Below, piece after piece: positions 3,579 through 34,017 of a stretch of 39,697 nucleotides of DNA. The DNA is from Solimonas sp. Lineage in GTDB: Bacteria; Pseudomonadota; Gammaproteobacteria; Nevskiales; Nevskiaceae. The stretch is taken from assembly GCA_030149365.1 (NCBI GenBank), contig JASBRP010000025.1:1-39697 (forward strand), given 5' to 3'. The notes beneath the pieces are model-generated. The model was given only the letters and a program-made list of their open reading frames with translations, made no database searches and had not been told where the DNA came from. Both the position numbers and the translations under genes were made by a program. Every line of letters begins with the position of its first letter. Positions within the stretch are counted from its first letter, which is position 1.

Positions 3579-4657
3579 AGATCGTTCACGTCGAAACCGG
3601 CATGCATCTCTACGGCGGCGCGCAGCAGGTGGCCTACCTGTTGCGGGGCCTGTCGACGCAGGGTGTCGACAACGTGCTGGTCTGCCCACCCGGTGCGAGC
3701 ATCGGCCAGCATTTCGCCGGCAGCGCGGTGAAGGTCATCGAAACACCCTGCAAGGGTGACCTGGACCTGGGCTTCATCGGCCGACTCAAGCGCATCCTGC
3801 TGGACGAAAAGCCCGACCTGGTCCACCTGCACAGCCGCCGCGGTGCCGACGTGCTGGGTGGGCTGGCGGCCAGCCGCGCCAAGGTGCCAGCGATCCTCTC
3901 GCGCCGCGTGGACAACCCGGAGTCGCGCCTGGCGGCCCGGCTGAAATACCGCCTCTATAACCGGGTAATCTGCATCTCGCAAGGCATCGCCGACGTGCTG
4001 CTGTCCGAAGGCGTGGAAGCCTCCCGCGTGCGCGTGGTGCGCAGTGCGGTGGACGCCAGCCCCTGGCTGAACCCGGAGCCGCGCGCCGCTTTTTGCGCCG
4101 CATTCGGCCTGCCGGAGGAACCGCCGCTGCTCGGCGTGGTGGCACAGTTGATCGAGCGCAAGGGCCACCGCTATCTCTTCGAGGCCCTGGCGTCACTCAA
4201 GGACCGCCATCCGTTCAGCCTGGTGGTGTTCGGCCAGGGCCCGCTGCGCGAGGAACTCGAGGCCTTGGCCGCCCGCCTGGGGCTGTCGGAGCGGCTGCGC
4301 TTCGCCGGCTTCCGCAAGGATCTGCCGCGCTGGCTCGGCAACCTGGACCTGCTGGTACATCCGGCCCTGATGGAGGGCCTGGGCGTGTCGCTGCTGCAGG
4401 CCTCGGCGGCCGGCGTGCCGATCATTGCCTGCCGCGCGGGTGGCATGCCAGAAGCGGTGCGCGACGGCCTCAGCGGCCTGCTGGTTCCGCCAGGCGACAG
4501 CTCCGCCCTGCGCGAGGCGCTGGCGCGGCTGCTGGAAAACCCGGACTACCGCCGCGAGCTCGGCCGCAACGGCAGCCGGCTGGCGCGGGAGGAGTTCTCC
4601 GCCGAGGTGATGGTGGCAGGCAACCTTGGCGTCTACCGCGAGCTGCTCGGGCGCTAG
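3575..4657 (+). CDS. GT4-family glycosyltransferase
   Basis: 360 residues with the two-lobed GT-B architecture. The N-terminal lobe has a glycine-rich loop (HLYGGAQQV, residues 11-20) and LVHLHSRRGADVLG. The C-terminal lobe has GVVAQLIERKGHRYL, VVFGQGPLREEL and LVHPALMEGLGVSLLQA, the GT4 donor-sugar site. The usual E-x7-E pair reads Glu267 and Gln275, so the second glutamate is replaced by glutamine. The start overlaps the heptosyltransferase stop (ATGA), so the two are translationally coupled. Its stop converges on the FkbM gene with a four-base overlap. It probably adds a sugar to LPS core or O-glycan in the cytoplasm; donor and acceptor are unknown. Confidence 0.88.
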   Translation: MKIVHVETGMHLYGGAQQVAYLLRGLSTQGVDNVLVCPPGASIGQHFAGSAVKVIETPCKGDLDLGFIGRLKRILLDEKPDLVHLHSRRGADVLGGLAASRAKVPAILSRRVDNPESRLAARLKYRLYNRVICISQGIADVLLSEGVEASRVRVVRSAVDASPWLNPEPRAAFCAAFGLPEEPPLLGVVAQLIERKGHRYLFEALASLKDRHPFSLVVFGQGPLREELEALAARLGLSERLRFAGFRKDLPRWLGNLDLLVHPALMEGLGVSLLQASAAGVPIIACRAGGMPEAVRDGLSGLLVPPGDSSALREALARLLENPDYRRELGRNGSRLAREEFSAEVMVAGNLGVYRELLGR

Positions 4658-5520
4658 CGCCTGTAGACCGTGTTCATGCGGGTGCGCTTGGCCACCGCAT
4701 AGCCCTTGCCGAGGATGGCGCCGGTCAGGTCCTGGCTCCACAGCTTCTCAGAGTTCTCGATGACGATGCAGCGCGGTAGCAAGGCGTCCGGCGCGGTCGC
4801 CAGGAAGGGAATCAGCGCCCGGTCCTCTGCGCCTTCAATGTCGATCTTCAGGGCGTCGATAGCACCGATGCCCAGTTCGGTGAGAACGGTCAGCAGGGGC
4901 CGACAACGCACCCGCACCGTGCCGCCCGACTGGTGGTTGATCGAGATGCTGCTGCCGCCGAGGTTGCCGGCGTCCAGGCGCAACTCGAACTCGCCCTCGG
5001 CATCGCTGACGCCGATCTGCAGGATGTCTACCTTCGGCCAGCCAGCTGTGGCACCCGCGCGGGTGGCTTCCAGGTTGAAGGACAGCCGCTGGTGCGCCGG
5101 CGGGTTGGGTTCGAACGCCACGATGCGGCCCGCCGGCCCCAGGCTCTGGCTGGCGGATAGCGAGTAGATACCCACATTCGCGCCGATGTCCACGAACACA
5201 CCGTCACGCGGCAGCTCCCTGGCAATCCACTCCCTCTCGAGCAGATCGAAGCGCCACGGCATGAACAGGAATTTGCGCTCCGAGTTGTTGTCACGCAGGT
5301 AGCAGCGCATGCGCAGTGCCCCAACCGAGGTATCAATTGGCAGCGGAGCCAGCTTCAGCACCAGCCTGCGGATGATCTGGGCGATCTGCTGGCCGAACCA
5401 GTTTTGCGGCAGCCCCTGGGCAAAGGCGATCAGCCTCGCGATCCAGCGAGGCGGAGCATGGTGACCGTAGGGGTTTGTCGTATCGGGATTCATGACGGAA
5501 TGCTTGATGTGGAAGTCCAT
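4654..5520 (-). CDS. FkbM-family SAM-dependent methyltransferase
   Basis: 288 residues. The class I methyltransferase core starts around residue 108 with VFVDIGANVGIYSL (SAM-binding glycine-rich loop, 110-117), followed by RIVAFEPNP (acidic residue for the SAM ribose) and later LKIDIEGAEDRAL, a signature of the FkbM family. Family members O-methylate sugars or other small molecules, and many lie in surface-polysaccharide clusters. This is the last gene of the minus-strand pse operon, 63 bases after the HisF-like gene. It could methylate the pseudaminic acid derivative or another residue of the glycan. The N-terminal 60 residues are not recognisable. The start could also be Met10. Confidence 0.85.
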   Translation of the reverse strand: MDFHIKHSVMNPDTTNPYGHHAPPRWIARLIAFAQGLPQNWFGQQIAQIIRRLVLKLAPLPIDTSVGALRMRCYLRDNNSERKFLFMPWRFDLLEREWIARELPRDGVFVDIGANVGIYSLSASQSLGPAGRIVAFEPNPPAHQRLSFNLEATRAGATAGWPKVDILQIGVSDAEGEFELRLDAGNLGGSSISINHQSGGTVRVRCRPLLTVLTELGIGAIDALKIDIEGAEDRALIPFLATAPDALLPRCIVIENSEKLWSQDLTGAILGKGYAVAKRTRMNTVYRR

Positions 5521-5583: not shown

Positions 5584-6360
5584 TCAGTCGGTTTCAACGA
5601 AATTGCGCCTTACCGGAATTCCAGCCTGCTGCAGATGACGCTTGGCCTCGGCTGGGGTTTGCTCGGTGAAATGGAACATGCTCGCCGCCGCCACTGCCGA
5701 GGCGCCGGCCTCCTTCACCGCCAGTACCATGTCCTGGTAGCTGCCGGCGCCGCCAGAGGCAATCACGGGGATCGCCACGGCCTGGGTGATTGAGGACACC
5801 AAGCGCAGGTCGTACCCCTGCATGGTGCCGTCGAGGTCGATCGAGGTGATCAGGATTTCACCCGCGCCGCGATCCGCCAACTCCCGCGCCCAGCTTATCG
5901 GGTCCTTGCCCGTCGCCCGGGTGCCAGCATGGCTGAAACACTCGTAGCGGCCCGGCTCCATCTGTCGTGCATCGATGCTTGCGATCACACATTGCGCGCC
6001 GAAATGCGCCGCCGCCCGATCAATGAGCGAGGGATCGTCATAGGCAGCGGAGTTGAGGCATATCTTGTCCGCACCGGCCTTCAGCAGATGGACGATGTGG
6101 TCGACGCTATTGATACCGCCACCCACCGTCAGCGGCACGAAGCACTCGTCGGAGAAATCGGAGACCGAGTCATGGTCAGGCGCCTGCTGATCCTGCGACG
6201 CATTGATGTCGACGAGGATGAGTTCGTCGACGTCGCGCATGTTGTAGACCTTGATCGACGGCAGCACCGAACCGACGCGACGCCAGCTGTTGAAGCCGAC
6301 ACCCTTGACCAGGCCAAGGTTCTTCCACAACAACGTCGGGATTACGCGAACTTTCAGCAT
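5584..6360 (-). CDS. hisF2: HisF2/AglZ-type HisF paralogue (acetamidino modification or ammonia-channel subunit)
   Basis: 258 residues with the (beta/alpha)8 barrel of HisF: VPLTVGGGI (76-84), VIASIDARQ (125-133), ILITSIDLDGTMQGYD (169-184) and VIASGGAGS (199-207). The housekeeping enzyme has CLD at positions 9-11 with catalytic Asp11; here the sequence is TLL, so Asp11 is Leu while Asp130 is kept. True imidazole-glycerol-phosphate cyclase activity is therefore unlikely. It matches the HisF2 type found in nonulosonic-acid and LPS clusters, where HisF/HisH-like proteins are thought to feed ammonia to an N-acetyl-sugar amidotransferase (PseA/WbpG). It overlaps hisH2 by seven bases. No PseA/WbpG homologue lies in this window. 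Family assignment is firm; the exact reaction is inferred. Confidence 0.85.
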   Translation of the reverse strand: MLKVRVIPTLLWKNLGLVKGVGFNSWRRVGSVLPSIKVYNMRDVDELILVDINASQDQQAPDHDSVSDFSDECFVPLTVGGGINSVDHIVHLLKAGADKICLNSAAYDDPSLIDRAAAHFGAQCVIASIDARQMEPGRYECFSHAGTRATGKDPISWARELADRGAGEILITSIDLDGTMQGYDLRLVSSITQAVAIPVIASGGAGSYQDMVLAVKEAGASAVAAASMFHFTEQTPAEAKRHLQQAGIPVRRNFVETD

Positions 6361-6974
6361 GAGCCGTACTCAAGGAAGTTCCGGAGCAGCCGGTGTCCCG
6401 CCTTGGAGCTCTTTTCCGGGTGAAACTGCGTGCCGAAGACATGCCCCTCGCCTACCGCCGCGGCGAAGGAGACGCCGTACTTGCAAGTCGCGAGAACATG
6501 CTCTGGCTGCGCACAGAAGACATAGCTGTGCACGAAGTAAAAATCGGTTTCATTGCCGATGTGCGCAAACAGCGGGTGCGTGGATACCACCTCGACATCG
6601 TTCCACCCCGCGTGCGGCACCCTCTCGCGGCAGCCCAGGGTATCGAGCCGGGCAACCTTTCCGGGGATCAGGTTCAGGCCGCGGCTGCTGCCGCCTTCCT
6701 CGCCCTGGGAAGCCAGCAACTGCATGCCCAGGCAGATGCCAAGGATGGGCTTGCGGTGCTCGATCACCTGCTTGCGCAACGCCTCGTCCCAACCGTCGGC
6801 ATGCAGGCGCGCCGAGCCCTCGGCGAAACTGCCCACTCCGGGCAGCACAATGTGCTGCGCATCCCACAAGGCACCAGGATGGTCGGCGATGAACGCCTCG
6901 GCATGCAGCTCGGCCAGCGCACGGCGCACCGAGCCCAGATTGCCCATCCCGTAGTTGATGATCGCCACCTTCAT
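6354..6974 (-). CDS. hisH2: HisH-type glutamine amidotransferase (HisH2)
   Basis: 206 residues, class I glutamine amidotransferase. The oxyanion strand NYGMGNLGSV is at residues 7-16, the nucleophile elbow is PILGICLGMQLL with Cys81, and the C-terminal GTQFHPEKSS supplies His185 and Glu187, so the glutaminase triad is complete. In histidine synthesis HisH hydrolyses glutamine and passes ammonia through the HisF barrel. Here its partner is the adjacent HisF2-type protein (seven-base overlap) and the context is the pseudaminic acid operon, not a his operon. The pair probably supplies ammonia to amidate a sugar N-acetyl group to acetamidino, as in the PseA/WbpG systems. It begins 78 bases after the sialyltransferase-like gene. 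Confidence 0.88.
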   Translation of the reverse strand: MKVAIINYGMGNLGSVRRALAELHAEAFIADHPGALWDAQHIVLPGVGSFAEGSARLHADGWDEALRKQVIEHRKPILGICLGMQLLASQGEEGGSSRGLNLIPGKVARLDTLGCRERVPHAGWNDVEVVSTHPLFAHIGNETDFYFVHSYVFCAQPEHVLATCKYGVSFAAAVGEGHVFGTQFHPEKSSKAGHRLLRNFLEYGSC

Positions 6975-7052
6975 ACGTTGTCGTCGTTCAGCCGGTTGAG
7001 GTTGTCGTGCTTACCGCGGAGTCGATTGTACTGTTACCCGACCACCCTCCGA

Positions 7053-8096
7053 TCAGGACAAGGTCCGGATACCCAGGGACCGGTAGATGCGCAGGATGGG
7101 GTCGTCTTCAAAGCCCGGCAGTACCAGGGTGGCAACCCGGACATCGGTGCCGAGCCACTGCAGGTAGATCAGCGCGCTGGTCAGCATGCCGACGACCTCG
7201 GTGCCGCTGAGCAGCGGCGCAAGGATTTCCAGCGGCAGGCGCTGCGGTACCTCGATCACCCCGCGATCCGGCAGGTCCAGGGCCATATCCTGGGACCTCG
7301 GGTGCCGCTTGATGGCGACCATGCCCCCGGCCGCCACGGTCTGGTCGAGCATCTGCTGCAGGCGATCCCGGACCTGGGGGTGCGCACGCATGAAGGAATC
7401 GTGCGGGAGGGCCAGCAACAACTGGATACCGTCCAGAGCCCTGGGGTCCAGGCCTGCCCGCAGATTGGACTGGGCACAGATCGCCTGCACGACCGGAAGG
7501 TGGAACCACTCGGGCTGCATGGCACGAAGGGGTTTCTGCCGCAGCCCGTCATGCACCTGGTCGGGCAATACGACCCAGGCCTCGTCCACGGCCCGCGAGG
7601 TGCCGAGATAGGCCACGCGCTCGCTCGACACACCGTAGATCATGCTGCGAAAGCGGTCTGCCGCCGCCCGCCCCAGGGCGGATTTCGGCACCGAGGGATC
7701 AGCCAGGGTGGAATAGGTCGCAGCGCCATCGTCAACATAGGCGGCGGTCGCCTGCGGCGCCACGGAAAGCGCGGCATGGAACTCCGCCCGGCAGTCATTG
7801 CCCACGGCCACATAGTCGGGAGCGAAGCGCCGCGTGTAGTCCATGACTTCGCGCATCCGCGTGCGGGCATTTGCCAGCTTCTGCTTGGCCTTCTTGCCGA
7901 CCTGCAGGAAGCGCCCCGTTTCCGCGAAGGGGCCCTTCATGCCTCCTGCGATCTCCTCGGCGATGAAATCGCGGTCGCTCGGACGTTGGTCAATCAGCAC
8001 CAGGGCACAATGCTGGCCCGCAAACGCGCCGGCCGCGATCCCCAGCGACCAGAGACTGTGCAGCGGGGTAGACGAAAGGAACAGGATATTGGACAT
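7053..8096 (-). CDS. Sialyltransferase-like glycosyltransferase, candidate nonulosonic (pseudaminic) acid transferase
   Basis: 347 residues, recognised only by motifs. It has the set shared by bacterial sialyl- and polysialyltransferases of the GT38/GT52/GT80 type: a D/E-D/E-G motif (VDDGAATYS, Asp122-Asp123-Gly124), a basic HP motif (AIKRHPR, His265-Pro266) and a later S/T pair (LTSAL, Thr306-Ser307). The N-terminus MSNILFLSSTPLHSLWS resembles the first strand of these GT-B enzymes. It lies directly after pseI, 15 bases apart, in the operon that makes CMP-pseudaminic acid. It is therefore the natural candidate to move pseudaminic acid from CMP onto an acceptor glycan. Acceptor and linkage are unknown. 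No signal peptide is seen, so it should act in the cytoplasm. Confidence 0.65.
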   Translation of the reverse strand: MSNILFLSSTPLHSLWSLGIAAGAFAGQHCALVLIDQRPSDRDFIAEEIAGGMKGPFAETGRFLQVGKKAKQKLANARTRMREVMDYTRRFAPDYVAVGNDCRAEFHAALSVAPQATAAYVDDGAATYSTLADPSVPKSALGRAAADRFRSMIYGVSSERVAYLGTSRAVDEAWVVLPDQVHDGLRQKPLRAMQPEWFHLPVVQAICAQSNLRAGLDPRALDGIQLLLALPHDSFMRAHPQVRDRLQQMLDQTVAAGGMVAIKRHPRSQDMALDLPDRGVIEVPQRLPLEILAPLLSGTEVVGMLTSALIYLQWLGTDVRVATLVLPGFEDDPILRIYRSLGIRTLS

Positions 8097-8111
8097 GCCT
8101 CGCCCCGTCGT

Positions 8112-9167
8112 TTAGCCCAGCAATTCCCAGGAGGCCGGCGTACCGCGCACCACATCACGCGCCACGCGCTTGCCGAGCAGACGCTCGTAGTACTTCGGCG
8201 GCAATCCGAGTCCCGGACGGATCGCACGCAGGTTGGCGGATGTCAGCACGTCGCCAGCCTTGAGGTCCTCCGTGATGTACAGCGAGCGACGGAAGACCTT
8301 GGACTTCTCTTCCGAAGCGGTCAGTCCGTAGTGGATACGACCCATCGCCAGACGCGCCCTCTCAGTCTCCACGACCAGTTGCGTCAGCTCCTCCGGCTCC
8401 AGCGAAAACGCGGAGTCCACGCCGCCGTCGGCGCGACGCAGGGTGAAATGCTTCTCGACCACCGTCGCGCCCAGTGCGACGCTGGCCACGGCGGCACCCA
8501 CGCCCATGGTGTGGTCCGACAACCCGATCTGGCATCCGAACAGCTGGCGCAAATGCGGGATCGTGGCCAGGTTGGTGTTCTCCGGCGTCGCCGGGTAGCT
8601 GCTGGTGCACTTGAGCAACACCAGGTCCTTGCACCCGGCGCCGCGAGCCGCTTGGACCGCTTCGTCGATCTCCGCCACGCTGGCCATGCCGGTGGAAATG
8701 ATCAGCGGCTTGCCAGTGGCGGCCACGCGGCGGATCAGCGGCAGGTCGATGTTCTCGAAGGAAGCGATCTTGTAGCAAGGCGCATCCAGCGATTCCAGGA
8801 AATCCACCGCGGTGAAATCAAAGGGCGAGCTGAAGCCGATCATTCCATGCTGCGCAGCGCGCTCAAAGATCGGCTTGTGCCATTCCCAGGGCGTATAGGC
8901 TTCCTTGTAGAGATCGTAGAGCGAGCTGCCCTTCCACAAGCTGTTGGGATCGGAGATGAAGAACTCGCCGTGCTTCAGGTCCAGCGTCATCGTGTCCGCG
9001 GTATAGGTCTGGATCTTCAGCGCATGGGCACCCGCCTTCGCCGCGGCATCCACGATTTCCAGCGCCCGCTCGAGCGACTGGTTGTGGTTGCCCGACATCT
9101 CTGCGATCACGAACGGCGCATGCCCGGAACCGATCCGGCGATGGGCGATTTGGATGTCCTGGATCAT
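8112..9167 (-). CDS. pseI: Pseudaminic acid synthase PseI
   Basis: 351 residues of the NeuB family: a TIM barrel (about 1-280) followed by a C-terminal SAF/antifreeze-like domain (about 290-351, with YITEDLKAGDVLTSANLRAIRPG). It condenses 2,4-diacetamido-2,4,6-trideoxy-L-altrose with phosphoenolpyruvate to give pseudaminic acid. Visible motifs are FVIAEMSGNHNQS, HALKIQTYTADTMTL and PLIISTGMAS. The long TMTLD/FFISDPNSLW insert is typical of PseI rather than of sialic or legionaminic acid synthases. The start overlaps the pseG stop by four bases, so translation is coupled. The surrounding complete pse set supports PseI over NeuB or LegI. Confidence 0.93.
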   Translation of the reverse strand: MIQDIQIAHRRIGSGHAPFVIAEMSGNHNQSLERALEIVDAAAKAGAHALKIQTYTADTMTLDLKHGEFFISDPNSLWKGSSLYDLYKEAYTPWEWHKPIFERAAQHGMIGFSSPFDFTAVDFLESLDAPCYKIASFENIDLPLIRRVAATGKPLIISTGMASVAEIDEAVQAARGAGCKDLVLLKCTSSYPATPENTNLATIPHLRQLFGCQIGLSDHTMGVGAAVASVALGATVVEKHFTLRRADGGVDSAFSLEPEELTQLVVETERARLAMGRIHYGLTASEEKSKVFRRSLYITEDLKAGDVLTSANLRAIRPGLGLPPKYYERLLGKRVARDVVRGTPASWELLG

Positions 9168-10684
9168 GGCCTCAGCCTCTGTTCGTATGCCTGGTTCTTG
9201 AATGCATAGCCGGCTTCACGGAAAGCCCTGTGGGAGGCTACGTTGGCCTCCAGGACTTCGCCGACGACGGTCCGTACTTCGGGATACTCCGCCGCCAGCC
9301 AGCGACTGCCGGCACCCAGGATGGCCGGCCCATAACCGGCGCCTCCGCAACCCGGAACCAGGTAGATCGACACCAGGGCGCCGTCCTGTTGCACATCATA
9401 TCGCAACACCCCCACCGGCCGGCCCTGATCCTCCGCGATCAGCAATGCCCGCTGCGGGTCCGCAAGGACCCTCTGGAACCAGCGCTGGTGGTCGTCATAC
9501 GGGATCGCGGAACTGGAATGCGAATGCCGGCGGGTGCTCTCGTCATTGCGCCACTCGTATACGTTGCGCATGTCGTCGGCCCCGGCTCGCCGCAGCCGCA
9601 CCTCCGGCGCCAGCAGCCGGCGCGCCACCCGCTCCGCCCCACGGCCATCCGTCAACTCGAGGTTGAGCCGCGACACCAGCCGGAAATGAGTGGGGTCGGC
9701 GGCGATCGCATCCAGTTGCCGAGCCAGCGCTGCCCCATCCAGACCAGCAGCCTCGAGCGTCCAGGCCTTGCCGGCCGCGCCCATGGCCTGGGCGGAGGGC
9801 CGCTGGTTGTCCGCCACCACCAGGATCACCGAGGGCAGGCCCATGCAAGCCCGCTCCCAGGTCGTGGAGCCGCCCGCGCCGATCGACAGGTCCGCCACCC
9901 GCATCAGTTCGGCCATGTTGCCCACCTGCTGGTGGAACTGCAGGTTCGGATGGCGGGCACAGTAGTCCCGCAAGGACACGGCTGCCGGGTTGGCGGCACC
10001 CACGACGACATCGGCCGGGTGATCGCGAAGCACGGACAGGGCCAGCGCTTCCAGTGCCAAGCCGGTGTATCCCCCCGCGTCGACGCCACCCAGGAACACC
10101 AGCAGCCGGTGCAACTCTTCACGCGGCTGCACCTGCGGGCGGGTCGCCGCAAACTCCGCACGCAGCAACGCATAGTCCGGCCCGAGCAGGCGAATGCAGC
10201 CGGCCGGCAGCAAGGCGTCGTAGCGCTCCTCGGCATCCGGCAGCAGGGCCTGGTCCAGCAGCAGGTCGGCGTCGTGATCGCGGTCGGCGAGATCGTCGAT
10301 CACCGCTATGCGCCGCACGGCCTTGCGCAGCCGGCGCTGCCAGCCCGCATCGAGCGCGTAGTGATCGACGATCATCCAATCGACGCTACCCATCGCCTCC
10401 AGCACCCGCAGGCACTCATCCCCGTCGAGTTCCATCGGCACGCCGAGCCATTCGGCATGGGCCAATCCGCCGCCTTCAGGAAGCAGGCTGCACGGCAGCG
10501 GCAGCACATGCAGGGCATGGCCCTGGGCTCGAATCAATCCATGCAGGTGGCCCGGCAACTCCCGGCTGAGGAAGTGGACCTCCGCACCGCGGCTGCGCAG
10601 CGCCGCCGCCAGGGTAAGGCAGCGCATGACATGCCCGGTGCCCATGAGCAGGGACGCGTCCACGCGAATGGCGATGCGACGCAT
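9164..10684 (-). CDS. pseG: PseG-PseH fusion: UDP-sugar hydrolase plus GNAT N-acetyltransferase
   Basis: 506 residues carrying two enzymes. Residues 1 to about 345 are PseG, a GT-B-fold hydrolase that removes UDP from UDP-2,4-diacetamido-2,4,6-trideoxy-L-altrose; GTGHVMRC near the start includes His18, equivalent to the catalytic His17 of Campylobacter PseG, and GAGGSTTWERACMGLPS is the UDP-binding region. Residues about 358-506 are a GNAT acetyltransferase (VRLRRAGADD, YEWRND, IYLVPGCGGAGYG, VASHRAFREAGY), in the position and role of PseH, which acetylates the 4-amino group. No separate pseH exists in the window, so the fusion completes the pathway. Steps 3 (PseH) and 4 (PseG) are consecutive, so the fusion joins neighbouring reactions. 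It starts four bases after the pseF stop. Confidence 0.9.
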   Translation of the reverse strand: MRRIAIRVDASLLMGTGHVMRCLTLAAALRSRGAEVHFLSRELPGHLHGLIRAQGHALHVLPLPCSLLPEGGGLAHAEWLGVPMELDGDECLRVLEAMGSVDWMIVDHYALDAGWQRRLRKAVRRIAVIDDLADRDHDADLLLDQALLPDAEERYDALLPAGCIRLLGPDYALLRAEFAATRPQVQPREELHRLLVFLGGVDAGGYTGLALEALALSVLRDHPADVVVGAANPAAVSLRDYCARHPNLQFHQQVGNMAELMRVADLSIGAGGSTTWERACMGLPSVILVVADNQRPSAQAMGAAGKAWTLEAAGLDGAALARQLDAIAADPTHFRLVSRLNLELTDGRGAERVARRLLAPEVRLRRAGADDMRNVYEWRNDESTRRHSHSSSAIPYDDHQRWFQRVLADPQRALLIAEDQGRPVGVLRYDVQQDGALVSIYLVPGCGGAGYGPAILGAGSRWLAAEYPEVRTVVGEVLEANVASHRAFREAGYAFKNQAYEQRLRP

Positions 10685-10688
10685 GGCT

Positions 10689-11383
10689 TCAACCCACCTG
10701 GCGCAGCGCCCCGAACATCAGTTCCGCACGCCGCCAGTCCTCCGGCGTATCGATGTCCTGCACCCGGTAGCGAGGCAGCAACCAGGGGCGTGCCCGCTCG
10801 GAGAAGATCGGCACACGCCCCCGGAAGGCGGCGACACGCCCCCAATAGAACTGCCCTGCGTCATGCAAGGCCGGCTCCAGATCCTGAGACCGGGTGTTCA
10901 GGTGCTGCGGCTGGAACATCGCGACGCCACCGCCAGGCAGCTCGCGCAAAGCCCGCTGGATCGGGAACGCATAGTGCGTAGCGGAGAACGCGTAGTCGAA
11001 GCCGGGAGCATCGAGCAATGCCGCGGCACCCCGCAGGTCTTCCGGCAGCACCATCGGCGCGGTGGAGTACAGGCAGCACAGCTGGTCCGGCACATCGCCT
11101 TGCGAGGCCAGCTCGTCAATGGCGTGGACGATCACATCCAGGGTCGTGGCATGGTCATCGGACAATGCTGCAGGACGCAGGAACGGCACTTCGGCCCCGC
11201 ACTCCCTGGCGATCCTGGCGATCTCTTCGTCATCCGTCGAAACCACCACCCGCTGCGCGACTCCACTGGCCAGCGCCGCCTCGATCGACCAGGCGATCAT
11301 CGGCTTGCCGAAGAACGGCTTGATGTTCTTGCGGGGTATGCGCTTGCTGCCGCCGCGGGCAGGGATCAGGACGACTCGCCGGC

Positions 11384-11387
<4 letters not shown>
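10689..11387 (-). CDS. pseF: Pseudaminic acid cytidylyltransferase PseF
   Basis: 232 residues of the CMP-NeuNAc synthetase-like cytidylyltransferase family. The N-terminal CTP-binding loop reads IPARGGSKRIPRKN (residues 8-21), followed by VVVSTDDEEIARIA and LSDDHATTLDVI. It activates pseudaminic acid with CTP to CMP-pseudaminic acid, the donor for the transferase. Its start overlaps the pseC stop by four bases (ATGA) and it sits between pseC and pseG, so the pseudaminic assignment comes from both sequence and operon. The length is normal for PseF. Confidence 0.92.
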
Positions 11388-16405
<5,018 letters not shown>

Positions 16406-16409
<4 letters not shown>

Positions 16410-17887
16410 AGCGCCGGCATGCGGTCGAACCAGGGTAGCGCCCGCTCCAGCTGTGCCGCTACCCGCAGCAAGCGCCCCTCCTCGCCGAACGGCGCCACGA
16501 ACTGCAGACCCAGCGGCAGGCCCTGCGCGGTCTGGTACAGCGGCACCGACATCGACGGCGTGCCGGTGAGGTTGGATAGCTGCGTGAACGGCACCTTGGA
16601 CAGGCTCTGGGTGGCGATCTGCTCCACCATGCCGCTGCGCAGCAGCAGGCCGCCGCCACGCAGGCCCAGCACCAGCTTCTGCGCCGCGCGCAGGGCGGCC
16701 GGCTGGTCCAGCTCGCCGATACGCACCGGCGGGCAGGCCAGCGTCGGCGTCAGGTACAGGTCATGGGACAGGAAGAACTGCCCGAAGGCGCGGGCAAAGT
16801 CGTTCCACAGCCGGCGGCGGCGCACATACTCGCCGGCATCCAGCGCCGCGCCTGCCTGGGCGAAGACCCGCGTGTCGGGCTCGAAGTCGCTCTCCGCGCA
16901 GCCGGTCAGCGCACGGATCTCGGCGACACTGGCGGCGACATTGCCCATGTACATGGTGATGAAGCAGCGCGCCAGCAGCGCGCCGTCCACGGCCGGCTCG
17001 GCCTCTTCCACGTGATGGCCCAGCGATTCCAGCAGCTTCGCGGTCTTGTGCACCGCCTCGACGTGCTGCGGGTCCACCGGCGAACCCAGCGGCGAGCGCG
17101 TGCAGAAGGCCACGCGCAGGCGACCCGGCTCGCGCTGCAGCTCGTCCATATAAGGACGCTCTGGCGCACGGATCTCGAAGGGCGCACCGAGGTCCGGCCC
17201 CTGCAGCGCATCCAGCATGGCCGCGCTGTCACGCACACTACGCGACACCACCAGGTCACTGTTGGCGCCTTCCCAGGCCTCGCCCATGCGCGGGCCCAGC
17301 GGCACCCGGCCACGCGACGGTCGCAGTCCGAACAACCCGCAGCAGGCGGCCGGAATGCGGATCGACCCGCCACCATCGTTGGCGCCGGCCATCGGCACGA
17401 TGCCCGCCGCCACCGCGGCGGCCGCACCGCCGGAAGAACCGCCCGGCGTGTGATCCAGGTTCCAGGGATTGCGGGTGATGCCCCAGGCCCGCGATTCGGT
17501 GATGCCCTTCAGCGCCAGCTCCGGCGTCGCGGTCTTGCCGAAGATCACCAGCCCGGCGTCGAGGAAGCGCTGGGTGATCGCCGCATGCGAGGGCGCCTTC
17601 CAGTCGCGCAGCGGCACGGAGCCGGAACTCGCCGGCACCCCGCCGTAGTCCTGCACGATGTCCTTGATCAGGAAGGGCACGCCGGCGAACGGCCCCAGCA
17701 GCGTCCCGGCCGCCCGGGCACGGCCGATTTCGTGCATGGGGATGTTGATGGCGTTGATCTTCGGATTGACCTCCGCCGCGCGCGCCAGCGCAGCCTCCAG
17801 CAGCTCCGTGGCCGTGGTTTCGCCCCGGGCCACCAGCCCGGCCAGGCCCAGCGCGTCGTGCCGCGCATAGTCCGCTGCGGAAATCAT
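16406..17887 (-). CDS. Amidase signature family hydrolase
   Basis: 493 residues, amidase signature (AS) family. The Ser-cisSer-Lys triad is visible as Lys75 (PFLIKDIV), Ser151 ([10 protein letters not shown]) and Ser175 ([11 protein letters not shown]). AS enzymes hydrolyse amide bonds; relatives include GatA and 6-aminohexanoate cyclic-dimer hydrolase. No gatB or gatC is adjacent, so a tRNA-dependent amidotransferase role is unlikely. It has no signal peptide and should be cytoplasmic. A strong ribosome site (GGAGGAGAA) precedes the ATG at 17887. The stop overlaps the glnE start (four bases), so the two are co-transcribed. The substrate cannot be told from sequence. Confidence 0.92.
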
Positions 17888-17977
17888 TGGTTCTCCTCCA
17901 GTCTGAATTTTCTGCGCATAGAGTAGCGGCGTTCCGCGCCGGCCTTACAATCGCGCAAACGGATTCCGATAACGACC

Positions 17978-18577
17978 ATGAAACGCCCCACCGCCCTGCT
18001 CGCCCTCATGCTGGCCGCCTGCGCCAGCGGACCCACCACCGAACAGCTGCTGAGCTTCACCCCCGGCCAGGCCGTGCCGGTGGACCTGGCCGCGCCGCAG
18101 CTGGCGAACCAGGTGGGCAAGCGCATCACGCTCTCCGGCCTGGCCCGCCAGCGCGAGGGCAGCTGCCTGGGGGTGGCGCCGGTCTCCAACAATGACTGGA
18201 TGCTGACGGGTGAAAGGGAGTGCGTCTGGGTCAACGGACGTGCCCAGGGCGCCTCGCTGATGGACGTGCGCAACAGCAACAGCCGCGAGCCGCTGGCGGT
18301 AACCGGCAAGCTGATCCGGACCAAGGAAGGCGTGCTGGTGCTGATGGCCGAGCGCAGCCCGCCGCCAGCCGCGCCGGTCCACGCCGCCCCGCCGGCAGCG
18401 CTGCCGCCCCCCGTCCAGCCGCTGCCGCAGCCGGCCGAACCGGCCCCTGTTCCACCGCCGCGGGAAGCCGTACCGCCCCCCGCACCGCTGCCCGAGCCGC
18501 CGCCGGCCGAGGCCGCTCCGGCACCATTGCCGGAACCGCCCCTGCCGCCGGGTTATTACCGCTCGCCGGGCTACTGA
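17978..18577 (+). CDS. Proline-rich lipoprotein of unknown function
   Basis: 199 residues. An N-terminal lipoprotein signal (MKRPTALLALMLAAC, lipobox LAAC, Cys15) predicts attachment to the outer membrane. Residues about 20-125 form a small folded domain with two cysteines (GSCLG, ERECVWV) and beta-rich sequence (KRITLSGLA, EPLAVTGKLIR). From about 128 onward the protein is a Pro/Ala-rich low-complexity tail ending in PLPPGYYRSPGY. I do not recognise the domain. It is transcribed divergently from the amidase with about 90 bases between them, and converges on the DUF2061 gene seven bases after its stop. Confidence 0.75.
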   Translation: MKRPTALLALMLAACASGPTTEQLLSFTPGQAVPVDLAAPQLANQVGKRITLSGLARQREGSCLGVAPVSNNDWMLTGERECVWVNGRAQGASLMDVRNSNSREPLAVTGKLIRTKEGVLVLMAERSPPPAAPVHAAPPAALPPPVQPLPQPAEPAPVPPPREAVPPPAPLPEPPPAEAAPAPLPEPPLPPGYYRSPGY

Positions 18578-18584
18578 GAACCCC

Positions 18585-18803
18585 TCAGTGGCTGTGGGCC
18601 AACCAGCCCATGCCGCCGGCATTAGCTGCGGCCCGCTCGCCGCGGCGCTTCCAGATCTTCTCGTGGAAGTGGTAGGCCACGGTATTGACGCAAGGCTCCA
18701 CCAGGGCCACCAGGCCGCCGGTCATCCAGCTGCCGGTCATGGCCCAGACGACCAGGAAGGCGACGCCGATGTGCATCGCACCGAAACTCAGGGTCTTGAT
18801 CAT
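18585..18803 (-). CDS. DUF2061 small membrane protein
   Basis: 72 residues matching the DUF2061 family: KTLSFGAMHIGVAFLVVWAMTGS, GGLVALVEPCVNTVAYHFHEKIWKR. Two hydrophobic stretches (about 8-26 and 28-45) suggest a small inner-membrane protein; the C-terminus is His-containing. Function is unknown for the family. A strong ribosome site (AAGGAG) precedes the ATG. Upstream lies a promoter-like element overlapped by a Fur-box-like sequence, which suggests iron repression. Confidence 0.88.
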   Translation of the reverse strand: MIKTLSFGAMHIGVAFLVVWAMTGSWMTGGLVALVEPCVNTVAYHFHEKIWKRRGERAAANAGGMGWLAHSH

Positions 18804-18841
18804 GGCCGCTCTCCTTGGTTGATTGGGTTGGCTGGAGAAAG

Positions 18842-18870
18842 ATGATAATGATTCTCAATATTGATGCCAT
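18842..18870 (-). promoter_or_regulatory. Putative promoter of the DUF2061 gene overlapped by a Fur box
   Basis: On the minus strand, -35 ATGGCA (18865-18870; 4 of 6 consensus) and -10 TATCAT (18842-18847; 5 of 6) are separated by 17 bases. A 19-base Fur-box-like sequence at 18844-18862 matches GATAATGATAATCATTATC at 16 of 19 positions on this strand and covers the -10 and the spacer, so bound Fur would block the promoter. It also lies 20 bases upstream of the divergent TSUP gene. Confidence 0.6.
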
Positions 18871-18882
18871 TGATTTGTTCCT

Positions 18883-19680
18883 ATGGCGTCGATTGCCGCG
18901 GCCAATCGCCCCGGCCGGCCGGCCATGAGCCCCAGTGAGGCCGCCCTGCTGGCCGGCGCCGCCTTCCTGGCCGGGGGACTCAATGCCCTGGCCGGCGGCG
19001 GCAGCTTCCTGACCCTGCCGGCGCTGATGGCGGTGGGCGTGCCGCCGGTGGCCGCCAATGCCACCGGCACCGCCGCCCTGCTGCCCGGCTACCTCAGCGC
19101 CGCCTGGGCCTCGCGCCGGGACCTGGTCGCCCCGGCCGGCCTGGGCCTGCCCAAGCTGCTGGGGCTGGCCCTGCTCGGCGGCAGTGCCGGCGCCGCCCTG
19201 CTGCTGCTGACGCCGGACCGGCTCTTTGCCAGCCTCGCGCCGCTGCTGCTGCTGGCCGCCACGCTGCTGTTTGCACTGCAGCCGCGCCTGCAGCGCCAAC
19301 GCACCGCCACCGTGCCGGCGGCGATGGCCGCCGCCGTGATCCTGGCGGTGTGCCTCTACGGCGGGTACTTCAACGGCGGCCTGGGCATCCTGCTGCTGGC
19401 GGCGCTGTCACTGCTGGGGGTGCGCGAACTGCATCGCGCCAACGCCCTGAAGAACCTGGTCTCCGGCGTGCTCACCGCCATTGCCGTGGCCCTGTATGCC
19501 GCCGGCGAAGCCGTGCGCTGGGGCCCGGCACTGTGGATGATGCTATTCGCCACCGCCGGCGGCTACGCCGGGGCGCGCTGGGCGCGCCGTATCCCGCCGG
19601 CACGGCTGCGGGCCTTCATCGTGCTGTCCGGGCTGGTGATGGCCGCGCTGATCGCCCTGCGCCTGCGCGGGGCCGCATAA
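18883..19680 (+). CDS. TSUP (TauE/SafE) family membrane transporter
   Basis: 265 residues with about eight hydrophobic segments and the TauE/SafE signature GGLNALAGGGSFLTLPALMAVGVPP...ANATGTAALLPGY near the N-terminus, repeated more weakly as GGYFNGGLGILLLAAL in the second half, as expected for this duplicated fold. The family exports sulfite, sulfoacetate or other small organosulfur anions; the substrate here is unknown. Two starts are possible, ATG 18883 and ATG 18925; the later one removes a 14-residue polar extension and fits the family better, but neither has a good ribosome site. It lies divergently from DUF2061 across the Fur-box-like element. Confidence 0.88.
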   Translation: MASIAAANRPGRPAMSPSEAALLAGAAFLAGGLNALAGGGSFLTLPALMAVGVPPVAANATGTAALLPGYLSAAWASRRDLVAPAGLGLPKLLGLALLGGSAGAALLLLTPDRLFASLAPLLLLAATLLFALQPRLQRQRTATVPAAMAAAVILAVCLYGGYFNGGLGILLLAALSLLGVRELHRANALKNLVSGVLTAIAVALYAAGEAVRWGPALWMMLFATAGGYAGARWARRIPPARLRAFIVLSGLVMAALIALRLRGAA

Positions 19681-19707
19681 CCATAGGAATGCAGGGACAA
19701 ATCAAGG

Positions 19708-21219
19708 ATGATGGGCGCCGGTCCGCGCAGATGGGAGAACAGGCTTTTGAGGGATGAAGTGCACTACCTGCAGGGTATCGTCGCGCGGCACTGGCCGCAG
19801 GCCCGGGTCCTGATCCTGGGCGACGTCATCCTCGACAAGTACACCTACGGCCGCGTCGAGCGCATTTCCCCCGAAGCGCCGGTGCCGGTGGTGCGTGCCG
19901 ACCGCAGCAGCGAACAGCCGGGCGGTGCCGCCAACGTCGCCATGAACGTGGTCGCCATGGGCGGCAAGGCCACCCTGGTCGGCTTCACCGGCCAGGATGC
20001 CGACCGCGACCTGCTGCAGCGCCAACTGGCCGAGGCCGGCGTGGAAGCCGCCCTGGTCGCGGTGGCAGGCACCCCCACCACCGCCAAGCTGCGCGTGCTG
20101 GCCGGCCAGCACCAGATCGTGCGCCTGGACCACGAATCCACCGCCGAGCGCCCCGCCGCCGCTTACGCGGAGCTGCTGCAGCGCTTTGAAGCCGCCCTGC
20201 CCTCCGCCCAGGTCGTGATCCTGTCCGACTATGCCAAGGGCGTGCTGACCGAAGCGGTCTGCAAGCGCGCCATCGCCCTGGCCCGCCAGGCCGGCGTGCC
20301 GGTGCTGGTGGACCCCAAGTCGCGCGACTTCTCGCGCTACGCCGGCGCCACCACCATCTGCCCCAACCGCGGCGAACTGGCCCTGGCCACCGGCGTGCAA
20401 GGCACCCCCGAGCAGGAACTGCAGGCCGGCCAGCGCTATGTGTCGGAGCTGGGCCTGTCCTACCTCACGGTGACCATGAGCGAAAAGGGCATCTACCTGC
20501 TCTGGCCCGAGCGCCGCCACCACGCGCCGGCCGTGGCGCGCCAGGTGTTCGACGTCTCCGGCGCCGGCGACACCGTGATCGCCTCGCTGGCGCTCTGCGC
20601 CGCCGCGGGCGTCCCCCCCGAACAGGCCGCGGGCCTGGCCAACCTCGCCGCCGGCATCGTCATCGCCAAGGTCGGCACCGTGCCAGCCTCGTCCGGCGAG
20701 CTGCTGTCGGAGCTGCGCGCCCTCAGCGCCGACGCCTCGGACCGCAAGGCCATGAGCCTGCCGGAGCTGGCGGAGAAAACCGCCGCCTGGCGCGCCGCCG
20801 GCCAGAAGGTGGTCTTCACCAACGGCTGCTTCGATCTGGTCCACGTCGGCCACGTCACCCTGCTGGAACAATGCCGCGAGTTTGGCACCCGGCTGGTGGT
20901 GGGCATCAACAGCGACGCCTCGGTCTCGCGCCTCAAGGGCCCCACCCGCCCGATCATCGCCGAGCAGCAGCGCGCCCGCCTGCTGTCGGCGCTGGCGGTG
21001 ACCGACGCCGTGGTGATCTTCGACGAACCCACGCCGATCGAGGTCATCAAGGCCATCCGGCCCGACGTGCTGGTCAAGGGCGGCGACTACACCGAGGCCA
21101 CCGTCGTCGGCGCGCCGGAAGTGCGCAGCTGGGGCGGCCGCGTGGAGCTGGTGCCGCTGGTGGAAGGCTTCAGCACCAGCGACATCGTGCGACGCATCAC
21201 CGCGCAGGCCAAGGCCTGA
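19708..21219 (+). CDS. hldE: Bifunctional heptose-7-phosphate kinase / heptose-1-phosphate adenylyltransferase HldE
   Basis: 503 residues in two domains. The first (about 25-345) is a PfkB/ribokinase sugar kinase with VLILGDVILDKY, GGAANVAMNV and the catalytic DVSGAGDTV loop near residue 285. The second (about 365-503) is a nucleotidyltransferase with FTNGCFDLVHVGHV (HxGH near 379) and VKGGDYTEATVVG. It makes D-glycero-D-manno-heptose 1,7-bisphosphate and later ADP-heptose for LPS core. The product feeds the heptosyltransferase at 2538-3578. It forms an operon with gmhB, which supplies the intermediate phosphatase step. AAGG before the first ATG may be the ribosome site; the first about 15 residues are not conserved and a later TTG (19747) is possible. 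Confidence 0.95.
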   Translation: MMGAGPRRWENRLLRDEVHYLQGIVARHWPQARVLILGDVILDKYTYGRVERISPEAPVPVVRADRSSEQPGGAANVAMNVVAMGGKATLVGFTGQDADRDLLQRQLAEAGVEAALVAVAGTPTTAKLRVLAGQHQIVRLDHESTAERPAAAYAELLQRFEAALPSAQVVILSDYAKGVLTEAVCKRAIALARQAGVPVLVDPKSRDFSRYAGATTICPNRGELALATGVQGTPEQELQAGQRYVSELGLSYLTVTMSEKGIYLLWPERRHHAPAVARQVFDVSGAGDTVIASLALCAAAGVPPEQAAGLANLAAGIVIAKVGTVPASSGELLSELRALSADASDRKAMSLPELAEKTAAWRAAGQKVVFTNGCFDLVHVGHVTLLEQCREFGTRLVVGINSDASVSRLKGPTRPIIAEQQRARLLSALAVTDAVVIFDEPTPIEVIKAIRPDVLVKGGDYTEATVVGAPEVRSWGGRVELVPLVEGFSTSDIVRRITAQAKA

Positions 21220-26649: not shown

Positions 26650-27987
<1,338 letters not shown>

Positions 27988-28001
27988 CTCTGTAGCGGGT
28001 A

Positions 28002-28176
28002 GGGGCCAGATAACGCTACCCCAATCGCTGCGGCGGAGGCTGATTTGGCGCAGGGCAATGTCCCGAGACGCGTGGTGTACTCAATGTACATAAGCGGCTC
28101 GGGACGCAGCCATGTGCCAAATCAGCCCCGCCCTTTCAGGGGCACCGCAGCGGTTGGGGTAGCGTTATCTGGCCCC
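28002..28176. repeat. 175-bp long palindromic element
   Basis: The two outer arms GGGGCCAGATAACGCTACCC and its continuation to CGCTGCGG (28002-28033 and 28145-28176) are inverted copies differing at one base. Further in, GGCTGATTTGGC (28038-28049) pairs with GCCAAATCAGCC (28116-28127), TCCCGAG (28061-28067) with CTCGGGA (28098-28104), and TGTAC with GTACA around loop TCAAT. The right arm carries about 14 extra bases (near 28130-28143). No open frame or transposase is inside. It fills the gap between chrA and the czc leader gene. It resembles a MITE or a large REP-type hairpin; no clear target-site duplication is seen. Confidence 0.8.
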
Positions 28177-28197
28177 ATGGGTGTTCAATAAGGGGAT

Positions 28198-28581
28198 ATG
28201 CGCCGTTTCCGCTCACCACCGCTGATGCTGGTCCTGCTGCTGGGCTTGGCCCTGCTGCTGACGCGCGTCGTGGGCACGCACCTGCATTTCTGCCTGGACG
28301 GGCAGGAAGCCCCGGTCGCGGTGCATATCGCCGATGGCGAAATCCACCATGACGGCCACCAGGGCGGCGATGTCGAGATCGACGATGCCTCTGCCGCCAA
28401 ATCCTGGCAGCAGTCGCTGACCGCCAGCTTCCTGTTCGTCGCCATCGTGCTGCTGTGGCTGCCGGCGGCACCGCGCTCCATCCTGCCCCGCGCCGTGGCG
28501 GCCATCCTGCCGCAGCGCCGGCTTCCCCACGTCCTGAGGCCGCCCCTGCGCGGCCCGCCCCTCACCGCCTCCCTCGCCTGA
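28198..28581 (+). CDS. Small His/Asp-rich membrane protein heading the czc operon
   Basis: 127 residues. A hydrophobic N-terminal segment (about 8-26; signal or anchor) precedes a His/Asp-rich stretch (THLHFCLDG, VHIADGEIHHDGHQGGDVEIDD, residues 27-63), then a second hydrophobic segment (about 75-92) and a basic, proline-rich tail. The polar part would face the periplasm and could bind divalent metal. Similar small proteins precede czcC in other czc operons, but this is not an obvious CzcI. AAGGGGAT serves as ribosome site. It lies 49 bases before czcC and is probably co-transcribed. Function is inferred from context only. Confidence 0.7.
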   Translation: MRRFRSPPLMLVLLLGLALLLTRVVGTHLHFCLDGQEAPVAVHIADGEIHHDGHQGGDVEIDDASAAKSWQQSLTASFLFVAIVLLWLPAAPRSILPRAVAAILPQRRLPHVLRPPLRGPPLTASLA

Positions 28582-28630
28582 CGTTCTCCTGGCGCCCCTC
28601 GCGGCGCCTCACTGCCTTTGGGAGGCAATC

Positions 28631-29905
28631 ATGTTTCGCATGTCATACCGGGCGCTGCCAGCGCTCGGCCTGTTCGTATCGCTGGCGGTCGCTGCCAACG
28701 AGCCGGCCGTCTTCGACGGCCCACCCCTGACCCTGTCCTCCGCCCTGCAGCGCGCGGAGTCCCAGCACCCCGGCTTCGAGCAATGGCGCGCCGCCAGCCG
28801 CGCCGCCGCCAGCCGCGTCTCGCAAGCCGGGCTGCGTCCGGCAACCGAATTGCATGTGTCCGCCGAAAACCTGCTCGGCAGCGGCCCCTATCGCGGGGTC
28901 GACGGGGTCGAGACCACACTGAGCTTCAGCCAACTGGTCGAGGCCGGCGGCCAACGCGCGCGCCGCATCGAAGCCGCCGGTGCCGAGCAGTCCATGCTGG
29001 ACGGCGAAGCCGGGCTGGCCGCGCTGGACCTGCGGGCCGAAGTGGCGCGGCGCTACGTCCACCTGCTGTCGGACCAGGAGCAACTCGCCATCACCCACGA
29101 GGCCAGCGCGCTGGCCGAGAAAACCCTCAAGGAAGTGGAACGGCGCGTGGCCGCCGCCCGCAGCCCGCTGGCCGAGCGCTCGCGTGCCCGTATCGCGCTG
29201 GACCGGGCGCTCCTGGCAGAGGAACACGCCGAGCATGAACTGCTCAGCTCGCGGCGCCACCTCGCGGCAGCCATGGGCCAGCAGGAAGCGGACTTCGGCG
29301 TCGCCCACGGCGATCTCCAGCAGTTGTCACTCGCCGTGGAATTCGACGTATTGCTGGCGCGCCTGCAAGCCTCGCCACAGGCCTTGCAGGTCGGCAGCGA
29401 AGCGCGCCTGCGCGAGTCCGAATGGCGCTTGCAGCAGGCCCGCGCCCGCAGCAGCCTGACACTCGGCGCCGGACTGCGGCGGCTGGGCGAAACCGACGAC
29501 ACGGCCCTGCTGTTCTCCGCCTCGCTGCCTTTGGGCGCGTCACGCCGCGCTGCACCGCTGATCGCGGAAGCCGAGGCGCGGCGCGACCAGAGCGAAGCGG
29601 CGGGCCGCGCGACGATGCTGAAGCTGCAGGCCCAGCTCTACGAACTGTTCCAGGAGCTGAACCACGCCCGCACGGAATTCGAGACCCAGCGCGACCGCGT
29701 GGTACCCGCGGCCGATGAAGCGCTGCGCCAGACCCGCCATGCCTGGGAACGCGGCCGCTACTCCCTGCTGGAACTGCGCGATGCCCACAGCGAATGGACC
29801 GGACAACGCCGCCGCCTGATCGAGGCCGCCGCCGAGTACCAGGGCTATCTCATCGAAATACAGCGTCTCACCGGACAGCCGGTCGGCGCGACCCAACAGG
29901 ATTGA
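28631..29905 (+). CDS. czcC: Outer-membrane efflux protein CzcC (TolC family)
   Basis: 424 residues with a signal peptide (about 1-21, ending AVAANE) and the two-repeat outer-membrane-factor architecture: long amphipathic helices (SRVSQAGLRPATELHVSAENLLG; SFSQLVEAGGQRARRIEAAG) and a second repeat near SASLPLGASRR...RHAWERGRYSLLELRDAH. It forms the outer-membrane channel of the CzcCBA complex. GGGAGG precedes the ATG. It is four bases upstream of czcB. Metal class is taken from CzcA. Confidence 0.92.
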   Translation: MFRMSYRALPALGLFVSLAVAANEPAVFDGPPLTLSSALQRAESQHPGFEQWRAASRAAASRVSQAGLRPATELHVSAENLLGSGPYRGVDGVETTLSFSQLVEAGGQRARRIEAAGAEQSMLDGEAGLAALDLRAEVARRYVHLLSDQEQLAITHEASALAEKTLKEVERRVAAARSPLAERSRARIALDRALLAEEHAEHELLSSRRHLAAAMGQQEADFGVAHGDLQQLSLAVEFDVLLARLQASPQALQVGSEARLRESEWRLQQARARSSLTLGAGLRRLGETDDTALLFSASLPLGASRRAAPLIAEAEARRDQSEAAGRATMLKLQAQLYELFQELNHARTEFETQRDRVVPAADEALRQTRHAWERGRYSLLELRDAHSEWTGQRRRLIEAAAEYQGYLIEIQRLTGQPVGATQQD

Positions 29906-29909
29906 CCCC

Positions 29910-34017
<4,108 letters not shown>

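Follow-up and report, generated by a model that had tools for sequence, protein, structure and literature searches.

A spare HisH2/HisF2 pair in a Solimonas pseudaminic acid operon and its probable amidotransferase partner elsewhere in the genome

Among the genes for pseudaminic acid synthesis in a Solimonas sp. lie hisH2 and hisF2, which resemble the two subunits of a histidine biosynthetic enzyme. Genes of this kind are also found with sugar amidotransferases, to which they are thought to supply ammonia, and the question raised by this locus is what the pair serves when no such amidotransferase lies beside it. The window, meaning the whole stretch of DNA that was analysed, is 39,697 bases long and is an entire contig (C27) of a draft genome of 4.83 Mb, which consists of 69 contigs and is 93% complete.

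On the minus strand, the genes run in the order pseB, pseC, pseF, a pseG-pseH fusion, pseI, the gene for a 347-aa protein, hisH2, hisF2, and the gene for an FkbM-type methyltransferase (Table 1). The pse genes were identified by NCBIfam models, and only the pseH half of the fusion falls under its curated cut-off (49.8 vs 93.1 bits). Thus, the placement of the pair within a pseudaminic acid operon, made in the earlier note on this DNA, is borne out. From pseB through the 347-aa gene, neighbouring genes overlap or are at most 15 bases apart; a gap of 78 bases then precedes hisH2, which overlaps hisF2 by 7 bases. The 347-aa protein shows the fold by which the bacterial polysialyltransferase-like group is recognised. 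It has no match to PF07388, a model matched by 17 of the 21 members of its family, and its named relatives come from two Solimonas MAGs (68% and 45% identity). PF01973 (formerly MAF_flag10) is unmatched in the 93% complete genome, and an Rfam scan gave nothing at gathering scores.

Table 1. Features of the pseudaminic acid operon and the genes that follow it (window positions)
Feature	Position	Strand	Model match or remark
pseB, UDP-GlcNAc 4,6-dehydratase (inverting)	12526..13536	-	TIGR03589 542 bits, cut-off 408
pseC, aminotransferase	11384..12529	-	TIGR03588 571 bits, cut-off 424
pseF, CMP-pseudaminic acid synthetase	10689..11387	-	TIGR03584 314 bits, cut-off 206
pseG-pseH fusion	9164..10684	-	TIGR03590 (above cut-off) residues 3-300; TIGR03585 (below cut-off) residues 369-497
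pseI, pseudaminic acid synthase	8112..9167	-	TIGR03586 506 bits, cut-off 340
347-aa predicted CMP-sugar transferase, bacterial polysialyltransferase fold (candidate pseudaminic acid transferase)	7053..8096	-	
wbuX 3'-end remnant	6971..7021	-	16 codons in frame + stop overlapping hisH2 start as ATGA
hisH2, glutaminase subunit, triad intact	6354..6974	-	TIGR01855 223 bits, cut-off 105.4
hisF2, HisF-like barrel, predicted ammonia conduit for sugar amidotransferase	5584..6360	-	WbuZ model 290.9 bits, cut-off 299.7
FkbM-type methyltransferase, same direction as hisF2	4654..5520	-	TIGR01444 76.6 bits, cut-off 37.7

HisH2 (206 aa) and HisF2 (258 aa) are 41% and 40% identical, respectively, to the housekeeping proteins of the same genome. 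The housekeeping hisH, hisA, and hisF are located on contig C14, so that the pair in the window is the only spare pair found. As the earlier note had it, the HisH2 triad (Cys81, His185, Glu187) is intact, a point confirmed by comparison at conserved columns, and in the alignment HisF2, which begins MLKVRVIPTLL, has Leu at position 11 and retains Asp130. Asp11 is the catalytic residue of the cyclase HisF, and its loss was considered as a possible special event at this locus. However, Leu11 and Asp130 are invariant in all 121 aligned rows (HisF2 and its 120 best homologues), while 63 of 63 other HisF loci have Asp11. Thus, Leu11 is a mark of the HisF2 subfamily rather than a local loss. HisF2 also retains Arg5, Glu46, Lys99, and Glu168, whose positions presumably correspond to the ammonia gate of HisF. 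Deviations at conserved columns number 1 of 112 in HisF2 and 0 of 54 in HisH2, at or under the median of their relatives, and so neither protein shows a sign of decay.

HisF2 scores under the cut-off of the model for HisF of imidazole glycerol phosphate (IGP) synthase (TIGR00735, 247 bits, cut-off 294.55) and under those of both amidation-type models, TIGR03572 (WbuZ, 290.9 vs 299.7) and NF038364 (AglZ/HisF2, 264.1 vs 310). The WbuZ model does not discriminate: none of 146 genomes passes its cut-off, and the housekeeping HisF of this genome scores 283.7. Since this model fails to separate HisF from HisF2, protein identity, residue 11, and gene context were used instead. On these grounds, a role in histidine synthesis is very unlikely for the pair, and the probability that it backs up IGP synthase is close to nil. 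The HisF fold and the 40% and 41% identities are in keeping with such a role, but Leu replaces Asp11, a full housekeeping hisH-hisA-hisF set is present on C14, and the pair is set in a pse operon. The expectation in the earlier note that HisF2 should not carry out the normal cyclase reaction is supported to this extent.

In other genomes, HisF2 comes with an amidotransferase of the WbuX family. Among the 80 loci, of 589 candidates, that were used for the HisF2 alignment, 17 (L013 to L029) encode a HisF2 of at least 54% identity, all with Leu11, and the remaining 63 encode a HisF of at most 51% identity, all with Asp11 and none with a WbuX match. In all 17, hisH2-hisF2 is preceded on its own strand by a WbuX gene, which is immediately adjacent in 16 and some 1 kb off in L028. 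A WbuX-family gene, whatever its subtype, is carried by 31 of 369 genomes from the class. In these 369, the HisF2 subtype (E≤1e-78) and the matching WbuX subtype (at least 65% identical) occur in an identical set of four, this genome and three others, and in those three the WbuX gene and hisH2-hisF2 are adjacent. A set of 398 genomes of the phylum contributes three others with the HisF2 subtype, two with the order WbuX-HisH2-HisF2 and one (G574) with a lone HisF2. Counted together, 22 of the 23 other HisF2 loci have WbuX upstream in the same orientation (17/17, 3/3, and 2/3), 21 of them directly, and all 23 carry Leu11; this total pools three collections that were not de-duplicated by name, although no two of the 20 cassettes that were measured have the same identity values.

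A search of the whole genome for the WbuX family gives nothing in the window, in agreement with the earlier note, which had seen no PseA/WbpG there, and a single match elsewhere, at C44:1669-2712 (TIGR03573, 325 bits, cut-off 203). This WbuX protein has 383 residues (C44:1663-2814), with a PP-loop, SGGKDS, at residues 68 to 73 and a CXXC...GXCXXC motif formed by Cys5, 8, 25, and 28. Such a tetracysteine motif together with a PP-loop marks the family, according to PMC10607449. The only PDB sequence match of the protein at E≤0.001 is 8wex. It is 63 to 84% identical to the WbuX proteins of L013 to L029, and the gene that precedes it matches TIGR03587, the pseudaminic acid biosynthesis-associated methylase (283 bits, cut-off 112). 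Thus, the partner missing from the window exists in the genome, where it lies beside a pseudaminic-acid methylase. From this neighbour, and from relatives found within pse clusters, its substrate is predicted to be CMP-pseudaminic acid. The pair had been called an orphan, a description that does not hold for the genome as a whole; the matching subtypes of HisF2 and WbuX share a genome, but next to the pair there is only a remnant. The earlier note had also stated that a co-regulated PseA/WbpG gene elsewhere, giving standard Pse5Ac7Am, would make the system a conventional one, and a gene of this family is found, on C44, which answers the point as far as sequence tells.

The remnant lies in the gap before hisH2. 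The minus strand from 7021 down to 6974 reads LRGKHDNLNRLNDDNV, followed by a TGA at 6973-6971 that overlaps the hisH2 ATG as ATGA. The same ATGA overlap is present in 12 of 22 intact cassettes, and the tail of an intact wbuX is exemplified by that of L013, VKDKHGNLEKLNYDNP. Against a profile built from 118 wbuX tails (117 of 120 WbuX homologues plus L013), the remnant scores 19.9 bits, and the next best of the 1245 stop codons in the window scores -27. No shuffle of the 78-base gap (0 of 200,000) and no stop codon in the 63 Asp11 loci (0 of 56,008; best 1.9) attains the remnant score. For genuine wbuX tails the median score is 68 and the lowest -20, and the remnant is thus diverged yet of wbuX type. 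Compared by residue, 8 of its last 13 residues are as in L013 and L016, the best matches among the cassettes. Assignment of the 13-residue piece to a lineage was abandoned, as it is too short and 2 of 120 homologues of the C44 type also reach 8/13. These findings suggest that hisH2-hisF2 was apparently once preceded by a wbuX, since deleted save for its end, which would account for the absence of a partner locally. The remnant at 6971-7021 had not been reported in the earlier note.

The C44 protein may not be the amidotransferase with which the pair evolved. In a first tree of 21 rows, C44 WbuX groups with the proteins of Limnohabitans (L029), genome G303 (L096), and a planctomycete (L023) with support of 100/99, and its placement with L013, L014, and L016 is rejected by the AU test (p 0.002), the groups for which were picked after this first tree had been viewed. 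The methylase tree (11 rows) is concordant (alternative p 0.008). In larger trees, for which 11 of the 21 rows were dropped, 2 new loci and a sample of homologues were added (44 of 119 for HisF2, 38 of 120 for WbuX), and a simpler model was used, the WbuX group is recovered (50 rows, 100/99.6) and the alternative placement is again rejected (p 0.007), with a bootstrap that had not settled. In the HisH2+HisF2 tree, by contrast, L029, L096, and L023 form a clade (100/99) that excludes this genome, which sits nearer L013, L014, and L016. When it is constrained to the L029/L096/L023 group, the AU p value is 0.024 with 21 rows and 0.073 in a second test with 12 chosen rows, so that on the HisH2+HisF2 side alone the conflict is moderate. 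The larger HisF2 tree (56 rows) likewise has L029/L096/L023 apart from this HisF2 (100/99.6), which falls in a group of 7 close homologues (98/96). Identities run in the same sense: to L029 they are 84.6% for WbuX, 78.0% for the methylase, 65.5% for HisF2, and 49.1% for HisH2, vs 78.5%, 63.5%, 71.8%, and 63.8% to L014. Together, the trees and identities indicate that the intact wbuX probably stems from a different lineage than hisH2 and hisF2, the nearest HisF2 homologues having been compared without their WbuX. The assembly, being 93% complete, could lack a further wbuX of native type.

The site of the intact wbuX is chromosomal. The methylase and wbuX genes lie between a tRNA-Gly(ccc) gene (C44 249-322) and thiS, and the contig matches the same-genus genome G001 on either side, at 95% over C44:1-322 and at 89% from 3243 on. 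The matching flanks show that the islet belongs to the chromosome and that its content differs from that of the relatives; on their evidence, misbinning of C44 was rejected. The interval from tRNA-Gly to thiS (C44 322-3240) spans 2918 bases here, 937 in G001, 955 in G003, and 2477 in G002. Its contents match at 95% between G001 and G003 and in no other pair, giving three kinds in four same-genus genomes. The G+C content of the islet is 56.6%, against a value of 64.8% over the initial 20 kb of C44. The right end of the interval in G001 and G003 carries another copy of 39 bases of the tRNA-Gly gene, a pattern seen at old integration sites. Bounding of the islet by a direct repeat was also considered, but G000 shows the tRNA copy alone, and hence no mobile element is claimed.

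At the pse site, G003 has the operon in the same gene order through the 347-aa gene (window 7053-20000, 90%). The next genes in G003 encode a dehydratase, a nucleotidyltransferase, an aminotransferase, a glycosyltransferase, and another methyltransferase, and neither this site nor the tRNA-Gly interval of G003 carries hisH2, hisF2, wbuX, or the methylase. A WbuX match is lacking from all three other genomes of the genus, as is a second HisF at E≤1e-60. Thus, among the four, the amidation genes are found only here, and at two places. An assembly artefact, either a broken link between wbuX and hisH2 or a C44 derived from another organism, would be conceivable in a draft of 69 contigs in which the methylase-wbuX genes lie about 1 kb from a contig end and are lower in G+C than C44 over its initial 20 kb. 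Such an error is nevertheless very improbable, given that the flanks of these genes match same-genus genomes, that the pse operon matches G003, and that the junction on C27 bears a specific wbuX tail.

From these data, HisH2/HisF2 is most simply read as an ammonia-supplying pair that would feed the C44 WbuX in trans, to yield acetamidino-pseudaminic acid, a reading given a probability of about 0.68. Since a single WbuX and a single spare donor pair were found in the genome and their subtypes match, acetamidino-pseudaminic acid formed in trans is the likely product. In the proposed mechanism, HisH2 would hydrolyse glutamine, and the ammonia would travel through the HisF2 barrel, in which the gate residues are retained and the cyclase Asp11 is not. 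WbuX would activate the N-acetyl group of the sugar with ATP and add the ammonia, giving an acetamidino group on CMP-pseudaminic acid, and the 347-aa sialyltransferase-fold protein would move the product onto a surface glycan. As for history, hisH2-hisF2 may have come with a wbuX of its own, of which a later deletion left just the final codons; a methylase and wbuX of another lineage may have entered at tRNA-Gly and now serve instead. That the locus is a natural hybrid of this sort, in which the donor pair lost its amidotransferase in place and serves one of another lineage from the tRNA-Gly site, is judged an even bet.

Against this reading, the pair and WbuX lie on separate contigs and may not be co-expressed. 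The trees also suggest that the two have not co-evolved, and contact between them may be poor or absent. The pair could be a relic and recent leftover that no longer serves amidation, with C44 WbuX using free ammonia or other glutaminases. The loss of the adjacent wbuX and the different lineages of the two parts would fit, as would G574, whose lone HisF2-type gene (L112 8123-8971, Leu11) has neither HisH2 nor WbuX within about 8 kb and indicates that relic copies may occur. This explanation is nonetheless unlikely, although it carries real weight: hisH2 and hisF2 are intact with their active-site residues, they deviate at conserved columns no more than the median relative, and a close relative (HisF2 93%, transferase 90% identical) seems to keep its hisF2 and transferase genes near each other, both being listed with a longest contig of 8896 bases. 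The neighbours of the lone gene in G574 resemble pilins and ubiA by eye.

Of the two acceptors suggested in the earlier note, a distant PseA fits, given the C44 WbuX and the fact that its subtype and that of HisF2 share one set of 4 genomes out of 369, and nothing found calls for the other, a different enzyme that would use the ammonia for a novel modification of pseudaminic acid. The operon proteins that were scanned include no recognised PP-loop protein, and WbuX is physically distant, as one would expect if there were another acceptor; yet this alternative is quite improbable, because a WbuX of matching subtype is present and co-distributed, no other candidate was recognised among those same operon proteins, and the remnant points to a wbuX product as the probable original acceptor. 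New chemistry is not required, and it is the apparent hybrid arrangement that is unusual.

Several known systems bear comparison with the proposed supply of WbuX in trans. In Campylobacter jejuni, hisH and hisF presumably adjoin pseA. The C44 protein, as predicted from the genes, would be a PseA-type amidotransferase for pseudaminic acid like C. jejuni PseA (Cj1316c), but here it is unlinked from the pse operon, the adjacent copy is a stub, PF01973 is unmatched, and a sialyltransferase-fold enzyme is present in the operon. Like the known donor pairs (AglZ/HisF2, WbuZ), HisF2/HisH2 has Leu11, the glutaminase triad, and pairing with the WbuX subtype; unlike them, it is split from WbuX and falls under both curated cut-offs. 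Acetamidino-pseudaminic acid itself is known from Campylobacter (PMC3958885, PMC4690887), and a C. jejuni pseA mutant is described as lacking the acetamidino modification (PMC4690887). C44 WbuX shares the PP-loop, the zinc tetracysteine motif, and the family model with WbuX, WbpG, and LpNASAT (PMC10607449), which act in LPS synthesis (FucNAm, ManNAc3NAmA, and the Legionella O-chain), whereas here the gene stands beside a pseudaminic-acid methylase.

The pairing of an amidotransferase with a methylase for a nonulosonic acid recalls PtmG and the N-methyltransferase PtmH of Campylobacter and Legionella (Leg5AmNMe7Ac), in which PtmH methylates the amidine of legionaminic acid (PMC3766260, PMC13317340). 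Here, however, the sugar is pseudaminic acid, and of the 11 class genomes that match the methylase model, TIGR03587, 6 lack a WbuX match and only 5 have one (E≤1e-20). The idea of a dedicated amidine N-methylase is thereby weakened. A methylase of at least 45% identity accompanies 10 of 20 HisF2 cassettes, and by analogy the C44 enzyme may act on the amidine or on another position.

In a Sphingomonas exopolysaccharide cluster, mutants in the WbuX, HisF2, and HisH genes (12, 10, and 9, respectively), which have successive locus tags, are listed among those of colony-morphology genes in PMC11340318. Their shared altered morphology is as expected if the three proteins act together. In the open-licence literature, no report was found of a wbuX split from hisF2/hisH2, and the papers searched did not settle how ammonia is handed from HisF2/HisH2 to sugar amidotransferases of the PP-loop type; a word search of the main text of the structure paper (PMC10607449) finds neither HisH nor HisF. 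If the hybrid reading is right, the donor pair would be an ammonia module that can be exchanged between systems, and the genes for amidated pseudaminic acid can be acquired in two separate parts. Donor and acceptor of seemingly different lineages at separate sites would offer a ready test of contact specificity, and the lack of an amidotransferase in a cluster need not signal new chemistry.

Other loci hold more than one system: L014, L021, and L027 each have two WbuX-HisH-HisF sets of different types close together, suggesting that two amidations may stay separate in one cell. Within the pse operon, the 347-aa transferase shares just 68% identity with the corresponding G003 protein (L103 8098-9141), while pseB through pseI are 88 to 96% identical, and the transferase gene may have undergone fast divergence or exchange. 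The FkbM-type methyltransferase (4654-5520), which has no match at the corresponding place in G003, could be a putative glycan methylase. Farther along the window, at 26650-34017, a chromate efflux-type transporter is followed by a CusA/CzcA-type metal efflux set on the plus strand.
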